Positions 9,537-25,959 of a DNA stretch of 64,000 nucleotides are shown piece after piece. Within the stretch, counting starts at the first letter, position 1. The number at the start of each line of letters is the position of its first letter. Source of the DNA: Clytia hemisphaerica (Eukaryota > Cnidaria > Hydrozoa > Leptothecata > Clytiidae); assembly GCA_902728285.1 (NCBI GenBank), contig CACVBU010000879.1:548734-612733 (forward strand), in the 5' to 3' direction. The notes under the pieces are model-generated. The model saw nothing but the letters and a program-made list of their open reading frames with translations. It was not told the DNA's origin and searched no databases. A program made the position numbers and the translations under genes.

Positions 9537-10019
9537 CTGACAAATATAAAATACATCATAAATAACCTAAAAAAGAATTTCAAATTTGTATAAGTTACTC
9601 CTCAATTTAATTGAATCATCTACATTTGTACTCAAAGTTTAAAACCAGTTTCTTTCACACATCGTTTGATTTTTATATTTAAAACAAGTCTTTACTTTAC
9701 TTGAAATACTTAATCAAAAAGAAATTTCAAAAAAAAATTATTGAAAGAAATATATCTTTCTTTTACTCCTTTTTATTTGGGGAATTTCTAGGTTGTAAGT
9801 GAGAGATCAGGAAGAAAAACAAGGAATTTTAAAGGCACATTTTTATGGCCTCAGAAAAATAAACAACAAAATAAGGCTATTTTCATCTTATTTTCTGGTT
9901 ACAGAGCATGGTTTAGGTGTGTTTGCAGAATCAAACTGCAGTTTTTGATTGGTTGAAAGTCACAGTTTGTAGGCTTTACTCGTCCAAGCAAATACAGAAA
10001 CTCCATAAACCTAGCGGTC

Positions 10020-10320
10020 ATTCAACCTAATGATCAATCAACCTAACGATCCATCGACCCAACAATCCATCAACCAATCTATCAACCAACCTATCCACCA
10101 ACCACCAATTCATCAACCTACCAATTCATCGCAAACCAATCTGTCAACCTACAAACCCATCAATCTACCAATCCATCAACCATCTAATTTGCTGACCTAC
10201 CAATCAATCAACCTACCGACCCATCAACCTACCAACCAATCAACCTACCGACCCATCAACCTACCGACCCATCAACCTACCGACCCATCAACCTACCAAC
10301 CCATAAACCTAACCAGTGCA
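10020..10320. repeat. Irregular CATCAACCTACC-type minisatellite
   Basis: Degenerate 12-20 base words (CCCATCAACCTACC) in a row. It gives a repetitive His/Gln/Pro/Thr open frame that I treat as non-coding. The same words resume at 11165-11535 and 12035-12100. Confidence 0.8.
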
Positions 10321-10942
10321 TAACAAAGTGCAACATTCGCCTTACATGTTCAATTCCACAATAATTTATAATTGTAATTTCGGTCAGTCGAGGGTTCATC
10401 ATATTGATGATAAAATATATATAGATAAAACTAAAAAACAGGGGCGTTAATAATGTATGTAATATTAATTCATAATTTATTTATCTTCAATTCTTACGAA
10501 TACAAAATTGGCTTTGTTGCTTCTATACCAAGAGATTGGGTAACTTGCATCAGTGGAGGCTAACATGCATAGCCCTCAAATAAAAACCTGGCTGGTCATT
10601 AAAATACAACTATGCAGCTCCGCTCGCAGCTTTACTCTACCATTTTTGTTTTGATTTAGCTTTGTTTTTTAATGAACAGCCACGGTCATTTATTTGAGGG
10701 CTATGCATGTTAGCCTGTATTTTGACTTCACGGTACTTATCCCCGGATGGTTTCAGTTGTTTAGAAGTATGACAAAGCATAATTCCAAAATGCCCGTCCA
10801 CCCAATTCACTCAATCATTTTAAATTTACTTTAATTATCCTATGATTTCTAAAAAAATTAAAACTTTTAATTCATAATTATATAAAAAAATAAAAAAGTT
10901 TGATGCTTCAGTGAAATATTTCAATAAATTCCTACTTTTCAA

Positions 10943-11124
10943 TAGACCTTTTTCAAAGAGGCCACCCTGTTGAATAATTATGTAGTCCAGCAGAAAAACA
11001 ATGATAAAACCATGCATAATTATTACAATATGCATGATACAGTAATTATGCATGGCTCTATCATTGTTTTTATGGCTGGACTACACAATTATTCAACAGG
11101 ACGTCCTCTTTGAAAAAAGGTCTA
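10943..11124. mobile_element. Hairpin MITE, TA target site (copy 2)
   Basis: Same family as 3558-3740, inserted between two blocks of the CATCAACC repeat. Ends TAGACCTTTTTCAAAG / TTTGAAAAAAGGTCTA. Confidence 0.85.
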
Positions 11125-11164
11125 TTTTCAGTGGGCATTTATCTAGCGCTTTGATTATCGCACT

Positions 11165-11535
11165 ACTAAACGATCAAACAACCTCACGATTTATCCACCT
11201 AGTGATCTATCCACTAGCCAATCTGTTGACCTACCAATCCATCGACCTACCAACTCGTTGACCGATCCATTCATCTATCCCACCCACCAATTCATTGAGC
11301 AACCATCATTCCCCCGCCGACCTATCAATCCAAACGATCCATTGGCCTATCCATCAACTAACAAACCCATATACCTACCAATCCTGCAATCCATTGAGAA
11401 TTCGTCAACCAAAAACAATTAGTTGACCTACCTTCTTCGTTGACCTACTAAATTCATCAACCAACCAATCCGCTGACCTATACCCAATCCATTGACTACC
11501 AATCCCTTAACCAACCAATCCATTGGCCTGCCAGC
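11165..11535. repeat. CATCAACC-type minisatellite, second block
   Basis: Continues the word pattern of 10020-10320, strongly degenerate. No gene seen. Confidence 0.7.
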
Positions 11536-11543
11536 CAACTAAA

Positions 11544-12031
11544 CAGACGATCTCAATCGAACAGAATCGACGGTCGAACCAGTCGAACCAAATCGAATGC
11601 AATCGACCGATTGAAATTCGATTGTTGAACGCAATCGAATCTCAATCGAATATTACCGCAATTTTCAGATTTGATTGATATATATATCGATTGCGTTCAA
11701 TTGATGTTCGATTGCGTTCGATCGTCGATTCATTGACCCCCGGATAGTTCATCGCATAATTTCTACGGGAAATCGAAAGTAATTTCATTGGGCTTGTGAT
11801 GTTTGAGAGGTTGGATGTTGGGAAGCTGCAAGAATAAAGCCAGACAATCTCAATTGAACAGAATCGACGATCGAACCAGTCAAACAACAATCGAACCAAT
11901 CGAATATTACCCAGAATTTTGACGTTCGATTGAGATTCAATTGCGTTCGACAATCGAATTTCAATCGGTTGATTGCGTTCGATTTGGTTCGACTGGTTCG
12001 ACCGTCGATTCCGTTTGATTGAGATCGTCTG
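11544..12031. mobile_element. ATCGAA-rich inverted-repeat element, second type
   Basis: Inverted ends CAGACGATCTCAATC / GATTGAGATCGTCTG. A second internal copy of the left end at about 11843 suggests one element nested in or fused to another. Related in wording to 3335-4267. Confidence 0.8.
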
Positions 12032-12570
12032 GAACTAACCAATACGTCAACCAACCAATTTGTCGACCTATTGATCCATCAACCTAACGATGATCAATCG
12101 ACCTACAACAATGATCTCCATATCATAATGACCAATCCATATCATCCTGCTAACTAGCGCACTAGCACTAGCTAAAGCTGATCCATATTATTATATCGAT
12201 TGGTGGATGATATCAGATGTCCAGATAATTATATACCCACTGATTGATGATCCTTCTGTGATGAAATTTGAAAAAAATAAAACAAACAAACCTTTTTCTT
12301 GCTTATTAGAATCCATAACGAGATAACTAGCAATGTGTGTTTGTCAATTTGGATATAAGAGCACAGTCGATTGGCACTGAATGAAGTATGAGCAGAATAC
12401 AGGGAAATCTTACGCAACTAGGATACCATTATTAAAGCGCAAACTAAATGAGGAGGAGTGAGCGCAAGGCGGCGGACACGGCACTTAAAAATCACGGATA
12501 ATCATTGATTTAAGACTCTTGCGAAATTAATGATTATCGTTGATTTAACGGTGATAACGGGTTGCATGGC

Positions 12571-13967
12571 TAGGTTGGATTGTTAAACAGTGGACTAGGT
12601 TGGATTGTTAAACAGTGGACTAGGTTGGATTGTTTAACAGTGGACTAGGTCAAATTGTTTAACAGTGGACCGGACATGACTATAGGTTGGCTTGTTAAAC
12701 AGTGGATTAGGTTGAATTGTTAAACAGTGGACTAGGTTGGATTGTTTAACAGTGAACCGGACATGGCTAGGTTGGATTGTTAGACAGTGGACTAGGTCAG
12801 ATTGTTTAACAGTGAACAGGACATGACTATAGGCTGGATTGTTAAACAGTGGACTAGGTAGGATTGTTTAACAGTGGACTAGGTCAGATTGTTTAACAGT
12901 GAACCGGACATGACTATAGGTTAAATTGTTCAACAGTGGACTAGGTAGGATTGTTTAACAGTTGACCGGACACGACTATAGTTTGGATTGTTAAACAGTG
13001 GACTAGGTAGGATTGTTAAACAGTGGACTAGGTTGGATTGTTAAACAGTGGACTAGGCTGGATTGTTAAACAGTGGACTAGGTTGGATTGTTAAACAGTG
13101 GACTAGGTTGAATTGTTAAACAGTGGACTAGGTCAGATTGTTTAACAGTGAACCGGACATGACTATAGGTTGGATTGTTAAACAGTGGACTAGGTAGGAT
13201 TGTTTAACAGTGGACTAGGTCAGATTGTTTAACAGTGAACCGGACATGACTATAGGTTAAATTGTTCAACAGTGGACTAGGTCAAATTGTTTAACAGTGG
13301 ACCGGACATGACTATAGGTTGGATTGTTAAACAGTGGACTAGGTTGAATTGTTAAACAGTGGACTAGTTTGGATTGTTTAACAGTGAACCGGACATGGCT
13401 AGGTTGGATTGTTAAACAGTGGACTAGGTCAGATTGTTTAACAGTGAACAGGACATGACTATAGGTTGGATTGTTAAACAGTGGACTAGGTAGGATTGTT
13501 TAACAGTGGACTAGGTCAGATTGTTTAACAGTGAACCGGACATGACTATAGGTTAAATTGTTCAACAGTGGACTAGGTAGGATTGTTTAACAGTTGACTG
13601 GACACGACTATAGTTTGGATTGTTAAACAGTGGACTAGGTAGGATTGTTAAACAGTGGACTAGGTTGGATTGTTAAACAGTGGACTAGGCTGGATTGTTA
13701 AACAGTGGACTAGGTTGGATTGTTAAACAGTGGACTAGGTTGGATTGTTAAACAGTGGACTAGGTTGGATTGTTAAACAGTGGACTAGGTTGGATTGTTA
13801 AACAGTGGACTAGGTTCGATTGTTAAACAGTGGACTAGGTTCGATTGTTAAACAGTGGACTAGGTTGGATTGTTAAACAGTGGACTAGGTTGGATTGTTA
13901 AACAGTGGACTAGGTTGGATTGTTTAACAGTGAACAGGACATGGCTAGGTTGGACTGTTTAACAGTG
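12571..13967. repeat. 25-bp minisatellite with higher-order structure
   Basis: Unit GGTTGGATTGTTAAACAGTG plus GACTA, about fifty copies, mixed with longer variants carrying GGACATGACTATA. A mixed block starting near 12819 recurs almost unchanged near 13451 (offset about 632 bases). Confidence 0.95.
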
Positions 13968-14089
13968 AAATACTTTCTGGTCTGTATTTTATAACATTAT
14001 TAGGTTAATCGACATTAGGTTATATTCTTTAACAGTGCTCTCCACTACTAAAGAATCCAACCAGTGACCACGCTAACTGCACCTGATCC
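13868..14089. repeat. 222-bp sequence duplicated across the assembly gap (left copy)
   Basis: End of the minisatellite plus its unique flank. Identical by eye to 14435-14656. Confidence 0.9.
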
Positions 14090-14424
14090 CACGTATCTTT
14101 AATTGAGCCGCGTTGAATTGTGGGATTGCAACTCGTACAAATGTCAAAAAAAGTGAAAAGTAATAATTATGACGTATGCATTGCGGAGCGCTATTAAATT
14201 GCGTTTTTTGGACAAAAATGTCCGCTAAATTAAATTCCCGCCAAAAGTTCTTCCTTTAATGTATATGAAATGATGTTTGTGGGTGTGTATCTAATAAGGT
14301 TGATGATCAGCGTTCCCGGGTGATATTATTTATGCGACACGTGTGATACACCAACCACGCTAACTCGTCTTATAACTCCAATGTTTACTACAGCTATTTC
14401 TTTTGTAAGATTTCTATGTTTTTA
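14090..14424. other. Segment between the duplicated edge and the gap
   Basis: No gene. Contains GTAATAATTATGACGTATGC, also found with small changes at about 32690-32710, so part is an interspersed repeat. Confidence 0.5.
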
Positions 14425-14434
14425 NNNNNNNNNN
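14425..14434. other. Assembly gap (10 N)
   Basis: Ten unknown bases, a fixed-size placeholder. True length unknown. Confidence 1.
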
Positions 14435-14656
14435 GATTGTTAAACAGTGGACTAGGTTGGATTGTTAAACAGTGGACTAGGTTGGATTGTTTAACAGTGA
14501 ACAGGACATGGCTAGGTTGGACTGTTTAACAGTGAAATACTTTCTGGTCTGTATTTTATAACATTATTAGGTTAATCGACATTAGGTTATATTCTTTAAC
14601 AGTGCTCTCCACTACTAAAGAATCCAACCAGTGACCACGCTAACTGCACCTGATCC
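14435..14656. repeat. 222-bp sequence duplicated across the assembly gap (right copy)
   Basis: Matches 13868-14089 base for base by eye, then diverges at CTGATCC. Confidence 0.9.
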
Positions 14657-15560
14657 GAAATCAATTAAAATCTAGCTTGTTATTTATCCAGTGTCTATAT
14701 TAAATTCATACTTCTAGATAAAGGAGGTATGGGACGGTTTTAAAATTTCAATAAGGCGAGGCCATTTTAACTTGTTGTTTTACGGGCCAAGCTACCCAAA
14801 AAAGAGGGTCGGTCGGTAGCGGCGAAAAAATAAAGATAACAGTAGAATTTCATTTATAAAATCTCCTAAAAAGAAAGCAAAAACTACTATCTTTACAAAA
14901 ATGCGAGAAAGAAAATAAAAAGACACAAAAAGCTCGAATTCATAGATAAAATGAAAAATCAAACATAAAATTCTCGAAACCTTTGATGAAAAACTACCAA
15001 AATTTTGAAAATTTGGCAGTATGAAGGATGAAAATAAACATATAATATGAAAATTAATTTTATTTTTTATTTCGATTTTTAAAATTTCAGGGTAGGTCGG
15101 GCCGGTAAAAAAAAAAAAATAATCAAATTGGTCGCTCCTAACTAAATTTAAAAAAAGAGAAGATTTTCTGGCTAAAAGCTTTATTGTATTAAAAATTGTA
15201 GACTATAATTTCATTTCCATGTAAAATGTTAGAATCATAGTCACTAGTTTGAGTAAAGAAAACGAGTCTTAAGTTAATTTCATAATCAATAATTTGAAGC
15301 AAAATTTGGTGACGAAGTTGATGGAGAAAATTGACAATGATCTGCCCGTATCTGAGAGTGGGTGTGTGCTTACCCATTCCAACCAGTAACAAAACCTCCA
15401 AAACGACCCTTAATTAAAAACCTTCTCAAGAACAAAAAAAATTACAACGTAAGCTAACGATAAAAGCACGATGTACGCAGTTAAAATCGTTAATGATCAT
15501 AAGAAAATAACAAAATATGAAAATAAATCTAAAAAGTTCAGAACGGGAAAAAACAGGCAA
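14657..15560. other. AT-rich interval, no gene seen
   Basis: Poly-A/T rich sequence with short open frames only. None has recognisable content. Probably the 3' flank of the CenH3 candidate. Confidence 0.5.
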
Positions 15561-15567
15561 TCCTTGA

Positions 15568-15862
15568 CTACGGCTCAAATTTCAAGATATTCAATAATTT
15601 CATATCTTTAACCATTAGCGTAACACGACCAGCATGTAAAGCGCAAAAGTTTGAGTCTTGAAAATATCTGACAATAAAATCTTCTGTTGCTTCTTGGAGG
15701 GCCTCCAGTGCTATTGTTTGTATGCGGAGATGTTCTGCACCAGCACTGCATAAAAGTTCTTTAATTAAACGACAAAAACTCAACTTAGGTATAAGATTAA
15801 ATGTGGTCCGTTGGTAAAACCGAATTTCTCCGACAGTTTTAATTAACGATTGCTTCATTCTC
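15568..15862 (-). CDS. Centromeric histone H3 candidate (CENP-A/CenH3), histone-fold exon
   Basis: Encodes a divergent histone H3 fold: VGEIRFYQRTTFNLIPKLSF aligns with the alpha-N region and ALEALQEATEDFIVRYFQD with alpha-2. The ending CALHAGRVTLMVKDMKLL has the LHAGRVTL wording of CENP-A. Three canonical H3 residues are replaced (Q68 to C, F84 to I, T107 to S) and loop 1 is one residue longer, all described hallmarks of CenH3. From the first Met in the exon the fold is 96 residues. The exon begins after TTTAAG at 15863 in phase 2 and ends at a stop. It would replace H3 in centromeric nucleosomes. Not a replication-type H3: too divergent, and spliced. Confidence 0.8.
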
Positions 15863-15922
15863 CTTAAAGAATAAAACGAGTTAAAAGTACACAAGTAAAT
15901 AACGTAGAACCCAAGAGATAAA

Positions 15923-16122
15923 AACACCCCCTTCTCACAGATCCACTGGAAAAGTTGGCAAAAATATCGTCCCGGTGAAAAATTATCCTCCAATTTTTGT
16001 CCTCAGTGAAAATAATCAAATAAACCAATCCTCACTGCAAAAAACTTTACTATTTTTCCCATTCCTCACTGAATTTTATGAGGCTGAAAAATCCTACCGG
16101 ATATGTGAGAAGGGGGTGTATA
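15923..16122 (+). mobile_element. MITE inside the CenH3 intron
   Basis: Inverted ends ACACCCCCTTCTCACA / TGTGAGAAGGGGGTGT, flanked by ATAAAA on both sides (likely target duplication). Copies share the CAGTGAGGATTGGTTTATTT core with 19010-19165 and 36320-36540. Confidence 0.75.
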
Positions 16123-16346
16123 AAACATGGATTTGAATGTGGAGGAATCCCCTTTTATTTTCTTTAGAAGATAAATTATACGAAGGAAGAGTTGTAAGAG
16201 GTATCAAAGTGTAAACTTATAAATCTTTATCTTCAAGATTAGTTCTGTCACCAATTCGTCGGTCTGGTAGTTAAGATTTTTATAATTATCGGCTGTGATT
16301 TTAAGAATATGTATTGGTTTCCAAGAGAATAGAAAAATAATGTTAC

Positions 16347-16473
16347 CTTTTCTTTTCTTTATTTTTTCTCTTCCTCGATGATTTCTTTGATTTCTCGTAT
16401 TTTTGTTTGGTTTTGTTGGTAGATTTGAGCAGCGTTGCAAATGGTGTTTTGGTGCAAGTTTGATACGGACCAT
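16347..16473 (-). CDS. Probable CenH3 N-terminal tail exon
   Basis: Starts ATG GTC (MVRIKLAPKHHLQ), very basic, ending KIKKRK before a GGTAACA donor. A TTTCATTAG acceptor-like site lies about 26 bases upstream of the ATG. It sits 0.48 kb upstream of the histone-fold exon and is the obvious tail. The problem: in the ATG frame the exon ends in phase 1, but the fold exon needs phase 2. The next frame (ending STNKTKQKYEKSKKSSRKRK, then NKEKKR) has the right phase but no ATG. One base is therefore out of register (error, polymorphism or missed exon). Confidence 0.5.
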
Positions 16474-17305
16474 ATTTATTAATCAATTTGTTGTAATTGC
16501 TAATGAAAGTGTATGAAAAATAATGCATTTTTAAAGGAGAGGAAATGGAACGAACACAAATTGTTGTCTTTGATACTAAGAACAACATTGTCGGGCTAGG
16601 ACTATTAAACGTGATGAACGAAAAGGTACATGGAGAAATTAGAATATTTTGAAGCAATAGTTCTGATCTTAAATTATCTAATTGATCGAAATGCTTTGTA
16701 AGAAGAGGCGAAAACTTCACGCAATAGAATGAATACAAAATTGCTCATGAGACTGGAGTATTCCAGTATCTATCCCTACCGATCTATCTATATCTATTTC
16801 GATTTAGAATAATCAGTTACATACAGTGCTAAGAATCTTAATCAAAACTATTAATACAAAGCGCTAGAATGGATAAGTCTAAACAGGGGCAAATAATTGA
16901 AAACACAAGTTTGAATTGACCTTCATAAACCTTTAAAAGTTAAATCCTAATGATCTAAAATTCTAATAAATCCTGAAGTGTAGTTTGACTACAAAATAAA
17001 AAGTTATGGGTGCGCGTTCTAAAGGTGCCTAAAATAAATTTAAAAGGTGCTGTTGTCTGTCTGACATTTTTTTACGTTTTGAAACAAAAATCGGACGGTG
17101 ATAAACTCCCCGGACGTTTATTAATTCTTTCGGTTTTTGGGAAGGGGGGGGCTCTGAGATAACAGTGTTAGTTATTGTATTTTGAAAATGCGATTTAAAA
17201 AGGAACTAAAAATAAAAAATTTTGGTCTATAAATGCTGTAATAAATTAGAATGCTTAAAATGATAGAAAAAAATCTGCATTAATCTAAAAAACAAAAACT
17301 AGAAA

Positions 17306-17983
17306 TCATTCAATCCTAGACTTGTATCCATTAAAAAGTTTCTTTTGTCCAAACTTGAAAATTTGGATCATCCATACCAAACTCAACCCATAAAAAGAAA
17401 ATCCACAAACTTTCATGAATAGTGTAGTTTCAGTGGCGTGGTAGAGATAATACGCCACTACCGTACCAACCACCGTTCGAAGGATGAAAAACAAGACAAA
17501 AAACACCAAATCATTAATAAAACCAAATATGCTTTGATAATTCCCTGTTTCTCGTAAAAACCAACGTATCTGTAGAAAGGGATTAGTTAATTCAGAGCCC
17601 CACGTGGTTAGCAACACTTCAGAGGCTGAATGTTGCGTCCACAGGCTGATCAACATGGAAGTGATACTAATGGCATGATGTATGACCATTAACACACCTT
17701 CAGTGCGCATGTACAAACACCACGTGATCTCAAAAATAAAATAACCAGCCGTTAAACATAACACGAGGTTTTGGTGATGTGTGTTTAAGAAGCCCATTGT
17801 GTCAAAGGGCCATGTTTCAAAGTACGCTGTGTATTCTGCAGAACGAACGATAGCCAAAGCATGTGTGAGAGAGACCATACGACTGATCCATTCTGCATTG
17901 TATTTTTTGCGAAACAAAAAGTACAACAAGAAATAATATGCTGACCAGATTGCAGCGAAGAATAGAAGTGCATTATAGTACAT
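17306..17983 (-). CDS. TLC-domain protein, TLCD5/TMEM136-like (copy 1)
   Basis: 225 residues, one coding exon, complete from ATG to stop. It is the closest of the three to vertebrate TLCD5 as I recall it: GVLMVIHHAIS with the paired histidine (102-103), and GSELTNPFLQIRWFLRETG (129-147). Predicted multi-pass ER/plasma-membrane protein of the TLC family. A TATTTTTCAG acceptor-like site lies 18 bases before the ATG, so the 5' UTR is probably spliced just ahead of the start, as in both sister genes. Confidence 0.88.
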   Translation of the reverse strand: MYYNALLFFAAIWSAYYFLLYFLFRKKYNAEWISRMVSLTHALAIVRSAEYTAYFETWPFDTMGFLNTHHQNLVLCLTAGYFIFEITWCLYMRTEGVLMVIHHAISITSMLISLWTQHSASEVLLTTWGSELTNPFLQIRWFLRETGNYQSIFGFINDLVFFVLFFILRTVVGTVVAYYLYHATETTLFMKVCGFSFYGLSLVWMIQIFKFGQKKLFNGYKSRIE

Positions 17984-19009
17984 TGTGTTTTTTTTTTAAT
18001 TCTGAAAAATAAGAAATGAAAAACGTTAGATCATGGTGAAAAGTATTCGTTCAGCACAGCTAAGTTCAAAAAATAAACCGAATAATAAAAGGTGAATCTT
18101 TTACTACCATATGGCCTCGACATCTAATTTGCTTAAAATTGATTTTATTTTTTTGGGGAAATGAAAAACATCAGCATCAGCAATGTTTGCTTAACCCCGT
18201 TAAAAAAAAGCTGCCCTGACCGAAAAATTGGGATCGACGAAAAGTAGGTACAATTTCCGCAGACCAAATTCGTAAAAATCTATTCTCAAATGCAAGAAAA
18301 AGTTCAAGATAAAAATATTTGTTTTCAAAAAAATACTACGGTACAATGCATAAAAATATTACCACTTATAAACATTTTAACTTTACAAATCTCCAAGTTA
18401 CAACAAATCGAAATAAAAAAAAGCAATTCGAAGCCCTTTCAAAATGCCACTAATTGGGTACTTACTTGAATAATTCAAATATTAATTCTGAATGTCAGGA
18501 AGTAGATTGATGGAAGTAGATTCAATCAGCCTATTTTATAAATTAGGTCACGTAAAACCTCTGCCTCGTATTGAAACGATTGCCAAGGTGATTCAAGTCC
18601 CTTGAGACATCCAGTCATTTTCTTAATCAAGCTTCTGAAGAAGAAGCTTGTTCAATTTTTATCCAAGCCAATACTGGAATGTCAAGGTATAATTTTGATA
18701 GACGAGCGAGGCATTAGCAAACAGTTTTCTTCTAATTATCAATTAGTAGTAAACATAAATAATAGAGAATAAAGAGCTTTCCATTTTTCTAGCCTACGAA
18801 TGGAATAAAGCGCGTTCAAATCTTTCAGAAGTTGCTGAGTCGAAACTAAAATCAAGTTTCAAGGGTAAGGAGAAATTTAACAATCAATTCTAAAAAAAGT
18901 TCTAAACATAAACTGATAACATTTTTTTTGAATAAATATAAAATAGACTATGAACAAAAGATTTGATGGAGATATTATTTTATTTTCGAGTCAGAAAATT
19001 TAGTGGGGT

Positions 19010-19165
19010 TGGGAGAAGTAGCGTAATATTTTGAAGTGAGGATTGGTTTATTTGATTATTTTCAGTGAGAACAAAAATTGGAGGATAATATTTTCCACAG
19101 GGGACGATATTTTGTACAATTTTCCCAGTGGGAAGGGGTCCCAGTGGGTCTGTGAGAAGGGGATG
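19010..19165. mobile_element. Partial MITE of the CTCACAGACCCACTGGG family
   Basis: Shares its GTGAGGATTGGTTTATTTGA core and TGTGAGAAGGGGATG end with 15923-16122. Confidence 0.65.
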
Positions 19166-19358
19166 TTTTTAACTTTGTAAGTAGTAACTAAATTTTAATA
19201 TAAATATCATTTTTGATAGTACAAAAAAGGTTGAAAATTCCATTAAAAATCTTTTTTTAATTACTTTTTTCCTTCTTTAAAACCCTTCAAAAAATTGCAA
19301 CACGCGCGAAAAAGCACTGGAAAGGGCTGGATTAAGAAAGGACCTCCAAGGTGTGTCA

Positions 19359-20045
19359 TCATTTCTGCTTATCACCTTTAGCATTAGAGGGAGGATACAA
19401 GAAGCCGAGTGCTCCCTCGATCATCATTTTCCCCATCGCAACATTGACGAAAGTGAAAGAAATGGCACCAAGTCGCACCACCAACAAACTGCGACCAATC
19501 ATGAAAATGTGATAAATGACGTATGTACCGAATATGAATCTCAAGGATAAGAAAAACACAAAGAAGAGTATGTCGTTGATGAGAGCAATGATTGACCCAG
19601 CAAATCTTTCACTGTGCTGGAAGAAGTACCGCAAGTTGCAAAACATATTTGTAAATTCACCATACCACACACATATAATAACTTCAGGTCCTGAGGTTCC
19701 TGCATAAGTGGTACCAAGGAAAATAATTGTTGCTAGCAAGTGGTGAGCTTTGATCATTACAGATTCTTTGATGATAAAACAAATGAGTGTGTCATATAAA
19801 AAGTAAGCTGCACTGATGGTCAGCACTGTCTTTTGAAGGGGTGACACAGGGCCTCCAAACCGGTTAAAATCCCACAATTGCTCGGTCACAATCAGATATT
19901 CACAAGAGCGCGCTGCAAACAACCCATGTAAGAAAGCAACTGCATACGAAGTTGATGTAGTGGCAAGGCTCCATTTCCATTGAATCAGTTTAAATATAAA
20001 AAACCAGAGCACAATTCCAATTCCTAGCAAAATGTAATCTATCAT
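19359..20045 (-). CDS. TLC-domain protein, TLCD5/TMEM136-like (copy 2)
   Basis: Second tandem paralogue, 228 residues from the chosen ATG at 20045. The paired histidine (residues 101-102) is present. The signature ELTNP of its sisters is altered to GEFTNMFCNLRYFF (129-142), so this copy is the most diverged. An upstream in-frame Met at 20168 would add 41 residues, but TTTCTTCAG followed by GAGAACACT sits 5' of the inner ATG and looks like a 3' splice site in the 5' UTR. Several membrane spans are evident. Single coding exon, minus strand, between its two paralogues. Confidence 0.83.
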   Translation of the reverse strand: MIDYILLGIGIVLWFFIFKLIQWKWSLATTSTSYAVAFLHGLFAARSCEYLIVTEQLWDFNRFGGPVSPLQKTVLTISAAYFLYDTLICFIIKESVMIKAHHLLATIIFLGTTYAGTSGPEVIICVWYGEFTNMFCNLRYFFQHSERFAGSIIALINDILFFVFFLSLRFIFGTYVIYHIFMIGRSLLVVRLGAISFTFVNVAMGKMMIEGALGFLYPPSNAKGDKQK

Positions 20046-20169
20046 TTTTAGTGTTCTCCTGAAGAAACGAAACAAAAAATAAACAAAAAGCAAATGAACA
20101 ATGTAAACGATTTTTAAACCAAAACCTTTAAACTGCCTATCATACCTTAATTCATCAAAATAATTCAAA

Positions 20170-21400
20170 AAATAGTCGAGATCAGTCCATAAAGAAATCC
20201 TACTTTGCTTACATGGTTCTTAAACAAAAAGTTAAAGGAGCCTTATCCGGAAAAATATTGAAAAACCATATTATTCTCAAAGATTTTCAAAATGTATGTA
20301 ATATATTTCTTAGCTGCTACATAAAATCTGAAATAATGTATAATCTACACCTACAACTTTTAAATCAAATAAAGCATCGTCTTTCAAATTAGGGACAATA
20401 ATTACAGTCTTTGGGAATTTTCGGGCCAAAGAGAAAATTAGATGGTAGAATAATTTTTTTTGTAAAGACTGATGCCAGGCAACAAAATATTTGATTGATC
20501 CATATTTCCTTAAAGAATCAAAATATCTACAACTAGACTAACACCAACAAAATATTCATTTTTCAGGCATGTATAAAGACCATCGTCATCCTATTATTTA
20601 ATAAACAGTGGAAAACAGCACAAACCTTCATACTGCTAGTAGGAAAAAAGGTGGAGTCTCAGCCAACTAAACCAACACTACTGTGTAACGATAGAAAATA
20701 TCATCATAAAGACATTAAACACCTTGAATGATACTCATCTTACAATTTCAAAATACCTAGATTTTTGGTTTTTATAATAAAATTCAGAATTCAAAATTCA
20801 ATTAAAATGAAACAATATAGAAATATATAAAAATAAAAATAAAATGGGAACAAATATAATATCTACTCTAAAATCTCGGGCTTTTTATAATTAATACTAT
20901 TTATTTACAAATACAACAAAAACTTTTCAAATCTTATCATTAAACCACACAAAGTTGTCAATTATCATCCCAATCTTTGCATATTTTTTGCATAGAAAAC
21001 AAGTTTCAAAATGATGAGCAATTTAGCATTAAACCTGGAAAATTGATGTGACAAACTATGCAAATTCAAAGCATCAATAATTATTATTTATACCATGTAG
21101 CAAGTTTATATCTGTGTTTGTTTTGGATGTTTTTAAAATGGCCTATTGATGACATAATACAATGCAATGTTCTTAGGTGAGAGTTATAACCTGGTTTGGT
21201 ACTGATTAATCCACTGTTAAATAAAAGTAATGTCATGGTTGTCAATAAAGTATACTTCATTTAATTAAATACATTTAACTCAATCAGGTCCAAAAAATTC
21301 TAAAAACATGAATAATAAATTACCAATCAAAAACAAGAAATAGAAGGAACAATTTCATAGAACATAAATCCATATGTAAATTCAATAACATTTTAAAAAG
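20170..21400. other. AT-rich spacer between TLC genes, nothing recognised
   Basis: No open frame or repeat I can name. It presumably contains the promoter and 5' UTR of copy 2 and the 3' end of copy 3. Confidence 0.5.
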
Positions 21401-21401
21401 T

Positions 21402-22049
21402 TTACATCAATTTTCTTTGGATGAATCCAATAATTTTATAACTCCATGACAATCCAACAAAATAAAACAATAGTCCAAATGCTTTGATGAGGGTGTGAGT
21501 TTTAGGTGCAACCATAAATTGATAACATAGAACAGTAAAAAAGATCACCCTAATGATCAAAAACACAACAGCAAATACAAAATCATTCCAAAAAGCTAAC
21601 CTGCTTCCTTGCATGGTGTAGTATTTCAAATAAAATCGATATTGGAGGAAAGGATTAGTGAGCTCTCCTCCCCATAGCGCCACACAAATCTCGGCACCAC
21701 TTGATCCATACCAATGTGATAAAGGAAGCATTAACACTCCAACAGCATGGTGTGCCAACATCAGGGGATCTTCATCAGACTTAACAAAGAGCAGCCAAAT
21801 TGTGTCAAAAATGAAATAAGAGCAAGCAAACATTAAAATCTTTTCTTCCATAACAGTGTTTGTGCCACCAATTCTGTGGAGCGGATTTCCATCTGTATAT
21901 GCACTATATTCTATCATACGACATATGACCAGAGAATGCAATAGTGTTAATGCTCGATTACACCATTCTTCAGGTTTGCCAGATAAAACTCTTAGCATCA
22001 AATATAATGTGAACCATAGAAAGGATAAGACAGTGATCTCAAAAATCAT
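21402..22049 (-). CDS. TLC-domain protein, TLCD5/TMEM136-like (copy 3)
   Basis: Multi-pass membrane protein of 215 residues with a TLC (TRAM-LAG1-CLN8) fold. It shows a paired histidine (HH, about residues 100-101), then GGELTNPFLQYRFYL (about 127-141), the pattern I know from TLCD5/TMEM136. At least five hydrophobic segments are visible. An in-frame Met 22 codons further upstream exists, but a TTTACAG acceptor-like site about 50 bases before the second Met suggests that the extra stretch starts in an intron, so the internal ATG is preferred. Coding sequence is one exon. Biochemical role of the TLCD4/5 group is lipid-related and not settled. Lies 1.4 kb from its sister gene, same strand. Confidence 0.85.
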   Translation of the reverse strand: MIFEITVLSFLWFTLYLMLRVLSGKPEEWCNRALTLLHSLVICRMIEYSAYTDGNPLHRIGGTNTVMEEKILMFACSYFIFDTIWLLFVKSDEDPLMLAHHAVGVLMLPLSHWYGSSGAEICVALWGGELTNPFLQYRFYLKYYTMQGSRLAFWNDFVFAVVFLIIRVIFFTVLCYQFMVAPKTHTLIKAFGLLFYFVGLSWSYKIIGFIQRKLM

Positions 22050-22617
22050 AATTAGAAAATAACACACAATGTGCAGTAATTTTGAAATTTTTCGTCTGTA
22101 AACATAACAAATCAAAATTGGTCATCTCAGGTTGGAAGGTTGTAGTTGTGAAAGATAAAAAACTCAATGACTCTATTTTAAGAAAAGTCAATAACCCTTA
22201 AGAAATTTGGGATTTGCCTCTAGGGATTTGCCTCTACAAAATTTTAGAATAGATCAAAAGAACAGGGAAAGAATATGATTGAAAAGCACATTTCTTGAGT
22301 TAAATTCTGTTGTCCCAAAAGGACTTGGTAAAAGCACTCCTATAAAAAATCTGTTGGAAACACATGGACTTTTCTTCTTAAGCTAAAGTCCCAGTCGAAC
22401 TTTACCAGAATTTCTAAGTTAGATAACTGTTCAATTTGGTTCGGTAATCGAACAGTTATCTTCAATTCCTTCAATAAATTGGTGGGTTGACATCGCTGAC
22501 TGGGTAGATTTTGAGTTGTAGATGAAAAGATTTGACCTGCCAGTCAGGAGTTTTTGCCTAAAGTATTTTACAATTTTCCCATATTTCCTAATTAGGAAGG
22601 CTATAGTGAAGTTATAT

Positions 22618-22745
22618 GCACTGGGGATAAGCTGAAGTTTTTATAAGATACTTCACTAATTGGTCATTTGAAGTGATAGAGATGACGAGTTCTTTAGAAA
22701 AAGAAACAAAAAACTCCAGCTTGTCCCAAGAAAATACAAACTAGC
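22618..22745. mobile_element. Degraded MITE of the AGCTGGAGTTTTTACAAG family
   Basis: GAAGTGATAGAGATGACG and ACTCCAGCTTGTCCC match the better copies at 27116-27285 and 29340-29493. Confidence 0.6.
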
Positions 22746-22999
22746 GACTAACCAAGATAATCTGTTTAATAAAAACCCAATATACATTTTGGAAAAAAGA
22801 AATACAGAAAGTAAAAAACAAAAGGAATGCACAAGACACAAAAGGAAGTGATAAGCTGAAAACCGAAGTCTGAGATCAGGTGCGGTACCAAGAGTAAGCA
22901 TCTCCTGCCACTCTAGAGTAACCTGTCAGTTTAACAAGAAGAAAGAAATTAAAACATATGCACAAAGTCTGACCATACAGTTTAACAAGCTACATGCTG

Positions 23000-24098
23000 A
23001 ATGGACCTACCTGAAGATTGATGTAATAAGACAATTGAAAAATGAGAACAATAGTATGAAAATGCAGAATAATACGAGAACAACTCGAGAAATTCATGGA
23101 ATCCGGCGATTCTCGGCTGTTTTGGCGATTTTTAGAAATTTCCTGTACCAAAATCAGTTTCATTGAAAATTGAACCATGCTTAATCGTGGACATTCTTAT
23201 AAATGATGTTTTTGTTTGAAAAAAAACAATGACATGAAAAAAAAAAATCCAATGAAAATCTGCAAAAACGGAAATTTCCGGCTTTTTTGGCCGGAAAAAC
23301 ATTTTCTCAAAAATCGAACGCAATCATGTTTTGAGTATTGCGAATACGCATCATTCTGCAAAAAATCAGAGAAAAATAAAGATGAAAATTCGAGAAAATG
23401 TCAAAAAACCGGTTTTTCTGGCATTTTCGGCCGGAAAAAAATGTTTTTTCGAAAATTGGGCCCGCCACATTTTAGGTGTTGTCGTTTTGCATCAGTGTGC
23501 AAAATTTCATAAAAAAATATAAAGTACAGCTTGAGAAATTCAAGAAATACTGTCTTTCCGGCGAAAATAGGTTGTTCTAGCAATTTTTGAATAGTTCCGG
23601 GTTCAAAAATCAATTTCATTGAAAATTGGAACATACTTGATGGTGGGCATTGCTATTAATAATGTTTTTGAATGAAAAAACAACCAATTATAAGGAAAAA
23701 GTCCAATAAAAATCCAGAAAAACGGCGATTTCCGGCATATTTCCGGCATTTTTGGCCGGAAAATTTTTTTCTCAAAAATCGGACTCGGCCATGTTTTGAG
23801 CATCGTTAATACGCATCTTTGAGCAAAAATTCAGAAAAAAACTAATAATAAAATCTCGAGAAAATGCCAAAAAACAAGTTTTTTCCGGCATATTTCCGCC
23901 ATTTTTGGCCGGAAAATTTTTTTTTCTCCAAAATCAGGCTCCGTCACATTTTGGGCATTGCCATTTTGCATCATTGTGCCAAAAATCAGAAAAAACTAAT
24001 GAGCCAATCCTGAGAAAAGCTGGTAACAGACGGACGAACGAACGGACAGACGGACATCGGTTAATTTATAGGACCTCCGAGGTAGGTCCAAAAAGTAC
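23000..24098. mobile_element. Element with GGACCTACC ends and internal GGCCGGAAA units
   Basis: Ends TGGACCTACCT and AGGTAGGTCCA are inverted. The interior repeats a unit of about 200 bases marked by TTTTGGCCGGAAAA and TCAAAAATCGG. Related copy at 34382-34800. Open frames here are by-products of the repeat. Confidence 0.7.
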
Positions 24099-24139
24099 AG
24101 CAGAAAAGGAAAGGTTGAAAAGTCAGCCTAAAACCTGAT

Positions 24140-25335
24140 TTGGCGTCCCGTGGAAAAACTTTTCAATTAGGAAAGTGAAACTATTTTCATAAATTTTGCA
24201 AAAAATACAAAAAGTCGCATGTTCCCAACACAGTCACACTTCAATTCTCCTTGGTTAGTTACAAAAAGCTGTACCTATTTTTTTTCTTTTCTCTTTACAG
24301 AATCAACATAAGCAATTGACACTGTAAATTCCACACATTTCCTCATCTGAAACTTTTAAATTATCTGACATTAAGACTTTCTTGAAGCCATTCTGAAATT
24401 AACCTTTTTTGTCAAAAAGAATTCCCCACACTATGGAACTGCCATGTCATTTGCATTTTTATTTAGCCATATATTTGCGCTAAAAAATAGCCATTATACT
24501 TGGGCTAAAAATACTTAAAGCCATTTTTTTCTCACATGCTCAAGCGAAAACTGAAGTTAATTGATATTCTTCAAAGAGAGAACGTCAGAAAAGAAACCCA
24601 TTGACCAAAAGATGTATTTTGTAGTTAAGAATCGATCCTGTGAACATGAAAAAATTTCTGCAATGCGTTTTTTTGGAACGCTGAAATAAAATCGTAAACC
24701 TAGAATATCGAGGTTCCACCTTACACTGCAACAGCATTATTTGATAATAGCTACCTCCTGAAGAGAAATTTTCAAGTTGTATTTTAAGCGGCGGCTTGAG
24801 ATATGGCTTTAAAAAAATGTTTTGATAAAACCCTTTCTACATGATGCGGAAACAAAATTATTTTAAAATGTGTCCAGGGTTTTAACGCTTTGAAATTGCC
24901 TACTAGGAAAGTTATTCATTCTGGGTGGTATATCTCAATGCTTTGCCCATTAGAGTTCATATTTTTTGCACATAGACAGTATAGCCCTAACTCTTCATAT
25001 AAAATTTACGGGAAGCACATATTTGAACTTTGTACCCAATGGTGCTTGCAAGCACTTAAGTTCAGGGGGAGGTCTAGCAGTTGATCCAGAACATCATCCG
25101 TAGTAACTGATTTTTGATGATTTTTAGGACCATGAAAATATAATGAAATGAAAGAAATCAGTATCATCAAGAAAGTATCATCATGAAAATATAAAATCTA
25201 GAGAAAATGACTAAATCTAGTATGTACAGGTAAGAATATAAATCAAAATGATAAAACTCAGTATAATAACAAAAATTATTGTATGCCTAAAAAAAGATTC
25301 AAATATCTCTTTTTTAGAATCAAATAGCAGTCTAG
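24140..25335. other. AT-rich interval, nothing recognised
   Basis: No credible gene or repeat identified by eye. Confidence 0.4.
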
Positions 25336-25338
25336 GTA

Positions 25339-25959
25339 TTAACCCTTTAAGTGCCGATGTCGTATATATACGACATGGGCTATATAGGAGGGCGAAGCCC
25401 TCCTGTAATGCCCAGTTTGAGTTAGAAATCGTTATTTTTGGTCGAACTCGTAGGAATTAGATTGTCCTTTATGGTCAAGCAAAAAAAAATTCAAAAGTGA
25501 GTCTTTCCAGCGAAATTTTAAGCAAAAAAGTCAAAAAAATGCAAAAAATTGACAAAAATTCACTTTTTTGAGATTCTGACCGTTTTTTGACTATTTTTGG
25601 TCAACGAGTGATCCAAGAACCTCCAAATTTGGCCCTGTTTTACTTTATTCTGTCTTCTAGTGAATTGATTTGAAATTTTACCACTGGGCACCTTTTCATC
25701 AGTTCAGTCAGGTCCGCGCAGCGGGCCTGACTGCTTTAATTCCCTAACCTACCCCCCCCTTGGCCGCCGCCCACCACGCCCTTCCTAAATCGGGCGGCGC
25801 CGAAGGCGCCCAAAAGAAAGAAGAGACTCTAAGCTATCCAACGAGCTATATACGAGCTTCTAATTCCTTCTAGATCAGGAGATATAAGCCCTTAAAGTTT
25901 GAACTAGCGATTTTTTAAAAAAAACTTAGAAAAAAGGACCCTGGCACTCAAAGGGTTAA
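25339..25959. mobile_element. piggyBac-type non-autonomous element
   Basis: Flanked by TTAA on both sides (25339-25342 and 25956-25959), with inverted ends CCCTTTAAGTGCC / GGCACTCAAAGGG. TTAA target duplication and CCC..GGG tips are typical of piggyBac. No transposase frame. A perfect inner palindrome TGTCGTATATATACGACA lies near the left tip. Confidence 0.8.

Follow-up and report, generated by a model that had tools for sequence, protein, structure and literature searches.

Does a divergent histone H3 exon in the 64,000-nucleotide stretch of the Clytia hemisphaerica genome analysed here (hereafter the window) belong to a centromeric histone, CenH3, and does its gene still serve the centromere? 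Our best explanation, which we regard as quite probable, is that this hydroidolinan hydrozoan carries, at the window locus, an old H3 paralogue of CenH3 type (CENP-A-like), the third of its kind, which derives from the same ancestral gene as two other loci in its genome. The evidence in hand consists of an intact fold exon, family membership, a shared intron, and a near-identical second copy on another contig. The best reading of the locus would be an old CenH3 paralogue that is now relaxed or specialised. In the text that follows, loci are named by our labels for their contigs, with C605 for the window locus, C541 for its second copy, and C882 and C274 for its two sister loci.

The part of the locus that carries the fold has the following features.

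15571..15862, minus strand: fold exon (exon 2), with a complete CenH3-type histone fold; alternative first exon bases are 15862 and 15859 (the sequence reads AAG-GAG-, with a possible cut after either triplet)
15568-15570, minus strand: stop codon TAG of the fold exon
15180..15185, minus strand: AATAAA, ~385 bases 3' of the stop

The open frame at 15568-16002 on the minus strand holds the full H3 fold at 15571-15858, which comprises 96 amino acids when read from an internal Met (from MKQSLIK; MKQSLIKTVGEIRFYQ...NILKFEP). Both the Pfam histone profile PF00125 (E=5.5e-21) and solved H3 chains in the PDB (best E=5.8e-19, for H3.Y) match this sequence at levels far above chance, which confirms the proposal that the exon at 15568-15862 encodes a complete H3 fold. 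There is also a Pfam match to CENP-T_C that falls below the cut-off, at 27.6 bits. The predicted structure of the fold has its helices in the expected order and, with a mean pLDDT of 54, is too weak for a structure search. Because the top solved chains are of the H3.Y, H3.3, and H3 types, sequence similarity alone does not make the fold a CenH3, and human CENP-A is absent from the best 60 of the 176 solved chains that match.

Searched as a protein against the genome (951 contigs, 417 Mb in total), the window fold gave 38 matches from 39 candidates. Five places are clearly nearer to the window fold than H3 is, namely C605, C541, C857, C882, and C274. The C541 fold is 100% identical to that of the window at the protein level, and identity is 69% for C882 and 58% for C274, compared to 47% for canonical H3 (84-89 aligned residues). 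C857 is a copy of the fold exon only, with a few intronic bases (L013:1595-1928; 334 bases, 97% identical, one extra base). Its protein matches the window fold at 93% over 67 residues and then at 80% over the rest in another frame, and what else C857 shares with the window consists of short, dispersed repeats. The remaining genome matches are canonical H3 and pieces on C212 and C869 (43-47%), and an intron-bearing H3.3 on C250 is matched in two pieces.

Several other histone genes were encountered in the genome. C212 and C869 hold 25 equal-scoring H3-type matches (22 and 3, respectively), mostly spaced ~6 kb apart, and the one stretch of these clusters that was read (L014) also has H4 and H1 frames. 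Among the H3 matches in the genome, no obvious counterpart of the intronless H3.3 of Hydractinia is present outside the C212 and C869 clusters, an observation that carries no weight because the cluster copies were considered as a group rather than singly. C928 carries an H2B-like pair in divergent orientation (L015:407-889 and 1176-1541), in which one gene has SPRK/SPKK repeats like those of hydrozoan sperm H2Bs. The other is very divergent (Pfam Histone, E=2.7e-9), and the name H2B is our own. A CENP-C_C domain (PF11699) was not found at E<=0.001 by an exon-by-exon search, which can miss such a domain.

Complete in-frame models based on simple ATG-GT-AG logic can be built for both sister loci. 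The C882 model has two exons and encodes 160 amino acids (MAKTKANQLRHEPK...), including a short and basic tail. The C274 model has three exons and encodes 232 amino acids (MARTKQTQQRRRK...). This latter gene is located at L011:3249-4827 on the minus strand, and its protein starts with MARTKQT like canonical H3 and continues with a long tail rich in Ser/Thr and acidic residues. Given these complete models, we rejected the possibility that the window locus is the only CenH3-type locus of the genome. All three genes have a phase 2 intron ahead of the fold. With acceptor 15859, the position of this intron in the window locus is that of C882 and C274, and acceptor 15862 would place it one codon earlier. 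Judged by this gene structure, the three loci are DNA-level duplicates of one gene.

Alignment with H3 bears out two residue-level claims of the original prediction. At the positions that we take to be H3 residues 68, 84, and 107, the canonical Q, F, and T are missing from the window fold and are replaced by C, I, and S, and its loop 1 exceeds that of H3 by one residue. C68, I84, and S107, together with P63, are common to the window locus, C882, and C274. The fold also carries changes at conserved positions that are presumably numbered L109F, K115G, and P121V. A further proposed resemblance, the sequence LHAGRVTL as in human CENP-A, is indeed present but is not diagnostic. Because the sister loci (C882 and C274) read IHAKRVTL and FHSRRVTV, the window motif is probably a convergence on human CENP-A, and we rejected it as a sign of kinship with that protein. 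Human CENP-A, whose sequence matches PDB 3nqu over its full length, is like the window fold in lacking Q68, F84, and T107, in having a longer loop 1, and in carrying LHAGRVTL. However, it has S, W, and A at the three positions, its loop 1 is two residues longer than that of H3, and it is 41% identical to the window fold.

Phylogenetic placement was assessed with 13 fold sequences, which comprise the three CenH3-type loci, two H3-type sequences of the same genome, and eight further sequences (three verified against the PDB). The window locus, C882, and C274 form one clade (96/100). A clade uniting the H3 rows with the window row is rejected (p-AU 4.8e-5), and in view of this result and the 47% identity to canonical H3 we discarded an H3/H3.3 identity for the locus. 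The H3/H3.3 clade is set apart from all CenH3 rows with a support of 93/86, which is not starred, and the deeper branching order is unsure because only one of the ten inner branches is starred. In this small tree, human CENP-A, Cse4, and Cid branch outside the trio. Within the trio, C274 is the partner of C605 in the best tree (80/47), and a pairing of C605 with C882 is also tolerated (p-AU 0.44). The end branches measure ~0 for C882 and 0.69 for C605, and the window copy is therefore fast-evolving and C882 conservative. As the most conservative locus, C882 is likely the main centromere histone.

The 3' flanks of these genes also differ from that of canonical H3, in which GGCTATTTTTATAGCC is located 30 bases from the first base of the stop, with two mismatches to what we take to be the histone stem-loop consensus. 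Within 400 bases downstream of the window locus there is no good match to this 3' stem-loop, with the best having four mismatches; the best matches over the same distance have four mismatches at C541, four at C882, and three at C274. The lack of a good match at the CenH3-type loci is what would be expected of replication-independent genes. An Rfam search at the gathering threshold, covering six sources, found a single stem-loop beside H1 in L014 and none at the CenH3-type loci, a silence that is weak because the stem-loop of H3 itself was also missed. The assignment of the window locus as CenH3-type rather than H3/H3.3 is supported by the tree, the signature residues, the intron that it shares with its sister loci, and a 3' flank in which no histone stem-loop is recognisable. 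Thus, the CenH3 candidacy put forward in the original prediction holds as a class assignment, but the locus is not "the" CenH3 of this genome. CenH3 is a functional name that lies beyond proof by sequence.

Upstream of the fold exon, the arrangement of features is less straightforward.

15863..16346, minus strand: phase 2 intron, like those of C882 and C274; its length is 484 bases with acceptor 15862
15924..16119, no strand assigned: MITE-like insertion inside the CenH3 intron, 196 bases, with 21-nt inverted ends (ACACCCCCTTCTCACA...)
16347..16473, minus strand: originally predicted tail frame, from ATG 16473 (MVRIKLAPKHH...); phase 1 at the donor
16347..16528, minus strand: putative tail exon from ATG 16528, in frame with the fold via 15862 or 15859; ATG 16588 is an alternative in-frame start

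Three donors score above 2 within 15862-17310, at 16779 (2.6), 16346 (2.5), and 16097 (4.1). Of these, 16097 is intronic and terminates just a 10-codon ATG frame, and 16346 is the predicted donor that fits a tail exon. These scores come from an approximate donor matrix, under which the C882 donor scores only 0.9. The intron length of 0.48 kb given originally agrees with the 484 bases obtained with acceptor 15862. In contrast, we rejected the basic exon proposed upstream, read from ATG 16473, as the tail under a simple splice model. Specifically, acceptors 15862 and 15859 require phase 2, whereas this frame reaches donor 16346 in phase 1, and the joined product stops after 43-44 amino acids. 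The open acceptors that take phase 1 and keep the frame open are 16001 and 15827. The former is located within the MITE-like insertion, has a fair tract (12 of 17 pyrimidines), and would add ~50 intron-derived residues; the latter is located within the fold exon (8 of 17 pyrimidines). The window has two further near-matches to the end sequence of the MITE-like element.

The tail that joins the fold in frame is part of a stop-to-stop ORF at 16343-16744. This tail reads ...STNKTKQKYEKSKKSSRKRKNKEKK followed by R at the junction, and it finishes in the basic run SKKSSRKRKNKEKKR. Products that start at ATG 16528 or 16588 and are joined to the fold would contain 157-178 amino acids. The residues F, W, Y, L, I, V, and M make up 25% of the 60-residue tail from 16528, compared to 9% of the C882 tail and 14% of the C274 first exon. 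A search with the C882 protein finds no tail counterpart at the window locus at E<=1e-10, although a weak counterpart could escape this threshold. A tail-less start of the window product is also possible, since an ATG sits just after the fold-exon acceptors. In the C541 copy, the last exon base before the donor (16347) is changed from G to T, which lowers the donor score from 2.5 to -1.6.

The second copy on C541 is part of a larger duplicated block that includes the CenH3 locus and neighbouring single-exon genes.

14657..25342, no strand assigned: 10.7-kb block also present on C541 (403150-412329), in pieces 94-99% identical, with unrelated flanks
17306..17995, minus strand: TLC-domain gene inside the block, neighbour of the CenH3 locus on the same strand

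Across the 2.3 kb that hold the locus, C605 and C541 are 98.8% identical (~14 mismatches). The fold exon is open in both, and its single difference is synonymous, which proves little because the neutral expectation for this exon is one to two differences. The high identity would also be seen if C605 and C541 were structural alleles or an assembly artefact of one locus, a reading that does not compete with those on gene identity. We consider this unlikely, as the 70 kb of C541 compared match the window in the block alone, apart from two matches on the opposite strand, of 263 and 338 bases, in a comparison that covered matches longer than 200 bases. Moreover, C882 and C274 (at least one of each among the matches listed) are each listed once; although these counts are lower bounds, they suggest that haplotypes are generally collapsed in this assembly. 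A segmental duplication is therefore more likely than uncollapsed haplotypes.

The surroundings of the block have features of their own. The region a short way to its left (12000-14091) is repeat-like, with at least 50 genome matches including itself when 40 of 1075 candidates were scored. Over ~10000-14100, the GC skew of this repeat-like sequence forms a mirror image (-0.30 then +0.32). The part of it searched, 12000-14600, has many relatives, and one 107-nt inverted pair is located at 11544-12031. A minus-strand dynein heavy chain gene lies to the right of the block, with Pfam matches at 30.2 and 36 kb and one below the cut-off at 52 kb. Next to the CenH3 locus, three tandem single-exon genes of membrane-protein-like character occupy 17306-22121, and two of the three have a Pfam TLC match. 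Elsewhere in the assembly, the mitochondrial contig C900 (14,551 bases, 10 kb read) has on one strand the order nad2-nad5-nad6-nad3-nad4L-nad1-nad4-cob-cox1, with genes named from sequence and TGA occurring inside the cox1 match. In its protein-coding genes, this fits the order nad2-nad5, rns-nad6-nad3-nad4L-nad1-nad4, cob-cox1 given for the hydroidolinan Physalia in the available text of its description (PMC4655093), and it points to a hydroidolinan hydrozoan.

To examine selection, a branch codon model was applied to 96 codons. Omega is 0.043 on the stem leading to C605 and C857, where omega=1 is rejected at p=0.04 only, in a fit that also produced an extreme value on another branch. In eight of nine fits, two or more of the three deep branches are at the length bound, and hence saturated, so the low stem omega is only indicative of long past constraint on the window locus. 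At the tips, omega is 0.61 for C605 and 0.59 for C857, which differs from the deep branches (p=0.0006) but not from 1 (shared-tip test, p=0.48, of low power). C605 and C857 differ at 10 codons, seven of them in the encoded amino acid. Recent constraint on the window locus is not demonstrated by a tip omega of ~0.6.

We propose that, for most of its history, the locus would have made a histone that paired with H4, replaced H3 in centromeric nucleosomes, and was loaded outside S phase. The window fold would then have diverged fast, with an H3-like start that is no longer in frame. Today the locus may be a paralogue whose tail is new or absent, or it may be losing function. Both of these outcomes are within our best explanation, and we place decay slightly ahead. 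Decay, in which an old CenH3 duplicate lost its tail frame and drifts with a fold exon that is intact only because the loss is recent, has close to an even chance. It would account for an H3-like ATG that is out of frame through the ordinary acceptors, the donor change in C541, the frameshifted C857 copy, the substitutions at conserved positions, and the tip omega. What it explains less readily is that the fold exon is open in two copies and that in-frame tails from ATG 16528 or 16588 exist, and the donor scores and tip test on which it draws are approximate and low-powered, respectively.

The intact fold in both copies would suit a living, specialised CenH3 paralogue (for example, germline-restricted as is fly Cid5) with a tail from ATG 16528 or 16588 or with none, which has a somewhat smaller chance. 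The basic end of the in-frame tail and the AATAAA downstream point the same way, as do the divergent tails and germline roles described for Drosophila CenH3 paralogues in the available text of PMC8200288. However, the in-frame N-terminus is aromatic-rich, with more F, W, Y, L, I, V, and M than the C882 tail and the first exon of C274, and the tail frames have no conservation support in the C882 search. It is very improbable that the locus is instead a non-centromeric divergent H3 variant, such as a sperm H3, that is related to CenH3 only by fast evolution. The functional definition and uncertain monophyly of CenH3, as stated in the available text of PMC3380720, would permit such a case, as would the long tree branches and the H3-type nearest solved chains. 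Nevertheless, placement with H3 is rejected, and the locus shares 69% identity and an intron with C882, whose two-exon layout is that of the published hydrozoan CENP-A (PMC5011920, available text). We therefore retain the old CenH3 paralogue as the preferred reading. The original prediction named, as a case that would refute it, another intact CenH3 beside a dead copy at this locus; half of this case applies, with intact models at C882 and C274 and a window copy that may still be alive.

The closest known system is Hydractinia echinata, for which the available text of PMC5011920 describes one CENP-A gene with two exons that is replication-independent and has transcripts highest in males. In the tree of Torok et al. 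2016, CENP-A was not clearly separated from H3 (PMC5011920). The likeness is that of a hydrozoan, H3-derived centromeric histone with two exons and replication-independent character. In contrast to the one gene there, Clytia has three CenH3-type loci, one of which has a second copy, together with a fragment. The natural counterpart of the Hydractinia gene would be C882 rather than the window locus, a match made by gene layout and not by sequence. Animals that carry two or more CenH3 genes whose tails have diverged are known from Cid1/Cid5 of Drosophila virilis and from mosquito Cid paralogues, as covered in the available text of PMC8200288, although their origin is very probably independent. 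The gametic specialisation of Cid paralogues was seen by cytology (PMC8200288), and for the window locus it is a mere possibility. Caenorhabditis hcp-3L offers another case of recurrent CenH3 duplicates, mostly short-lived, but in holocentric nematodes (PMC9577544, available text), whereas the Clytia duplicate appears old (its deep branches are saturated). In the literature searched, as far as its text was available, we saw no hydrozoan described with multiple CenH3 genes, and Hydra "CENP-A homologs" are mentioned without a number in the available text of PMC8141815.

It is a tentative and rather doubtful proposition that three old and diverged CenH3 genes, each with a tail quite unlike the others, are retained in one cnidarian, with the window gene alive as a germline- or stage-specialised centromere histone. 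If the window copy is dying, this is how duplicates ordinarily end, and it is of little importance. If three CenH3 genes are kept and the window gene is living, a division of labour among centromere histones would have arisen outside Bilateria too. The presence of three CenH3-type loci in one hydrozoan would make centromere-histone specialisation testable in a non-bilaterian.
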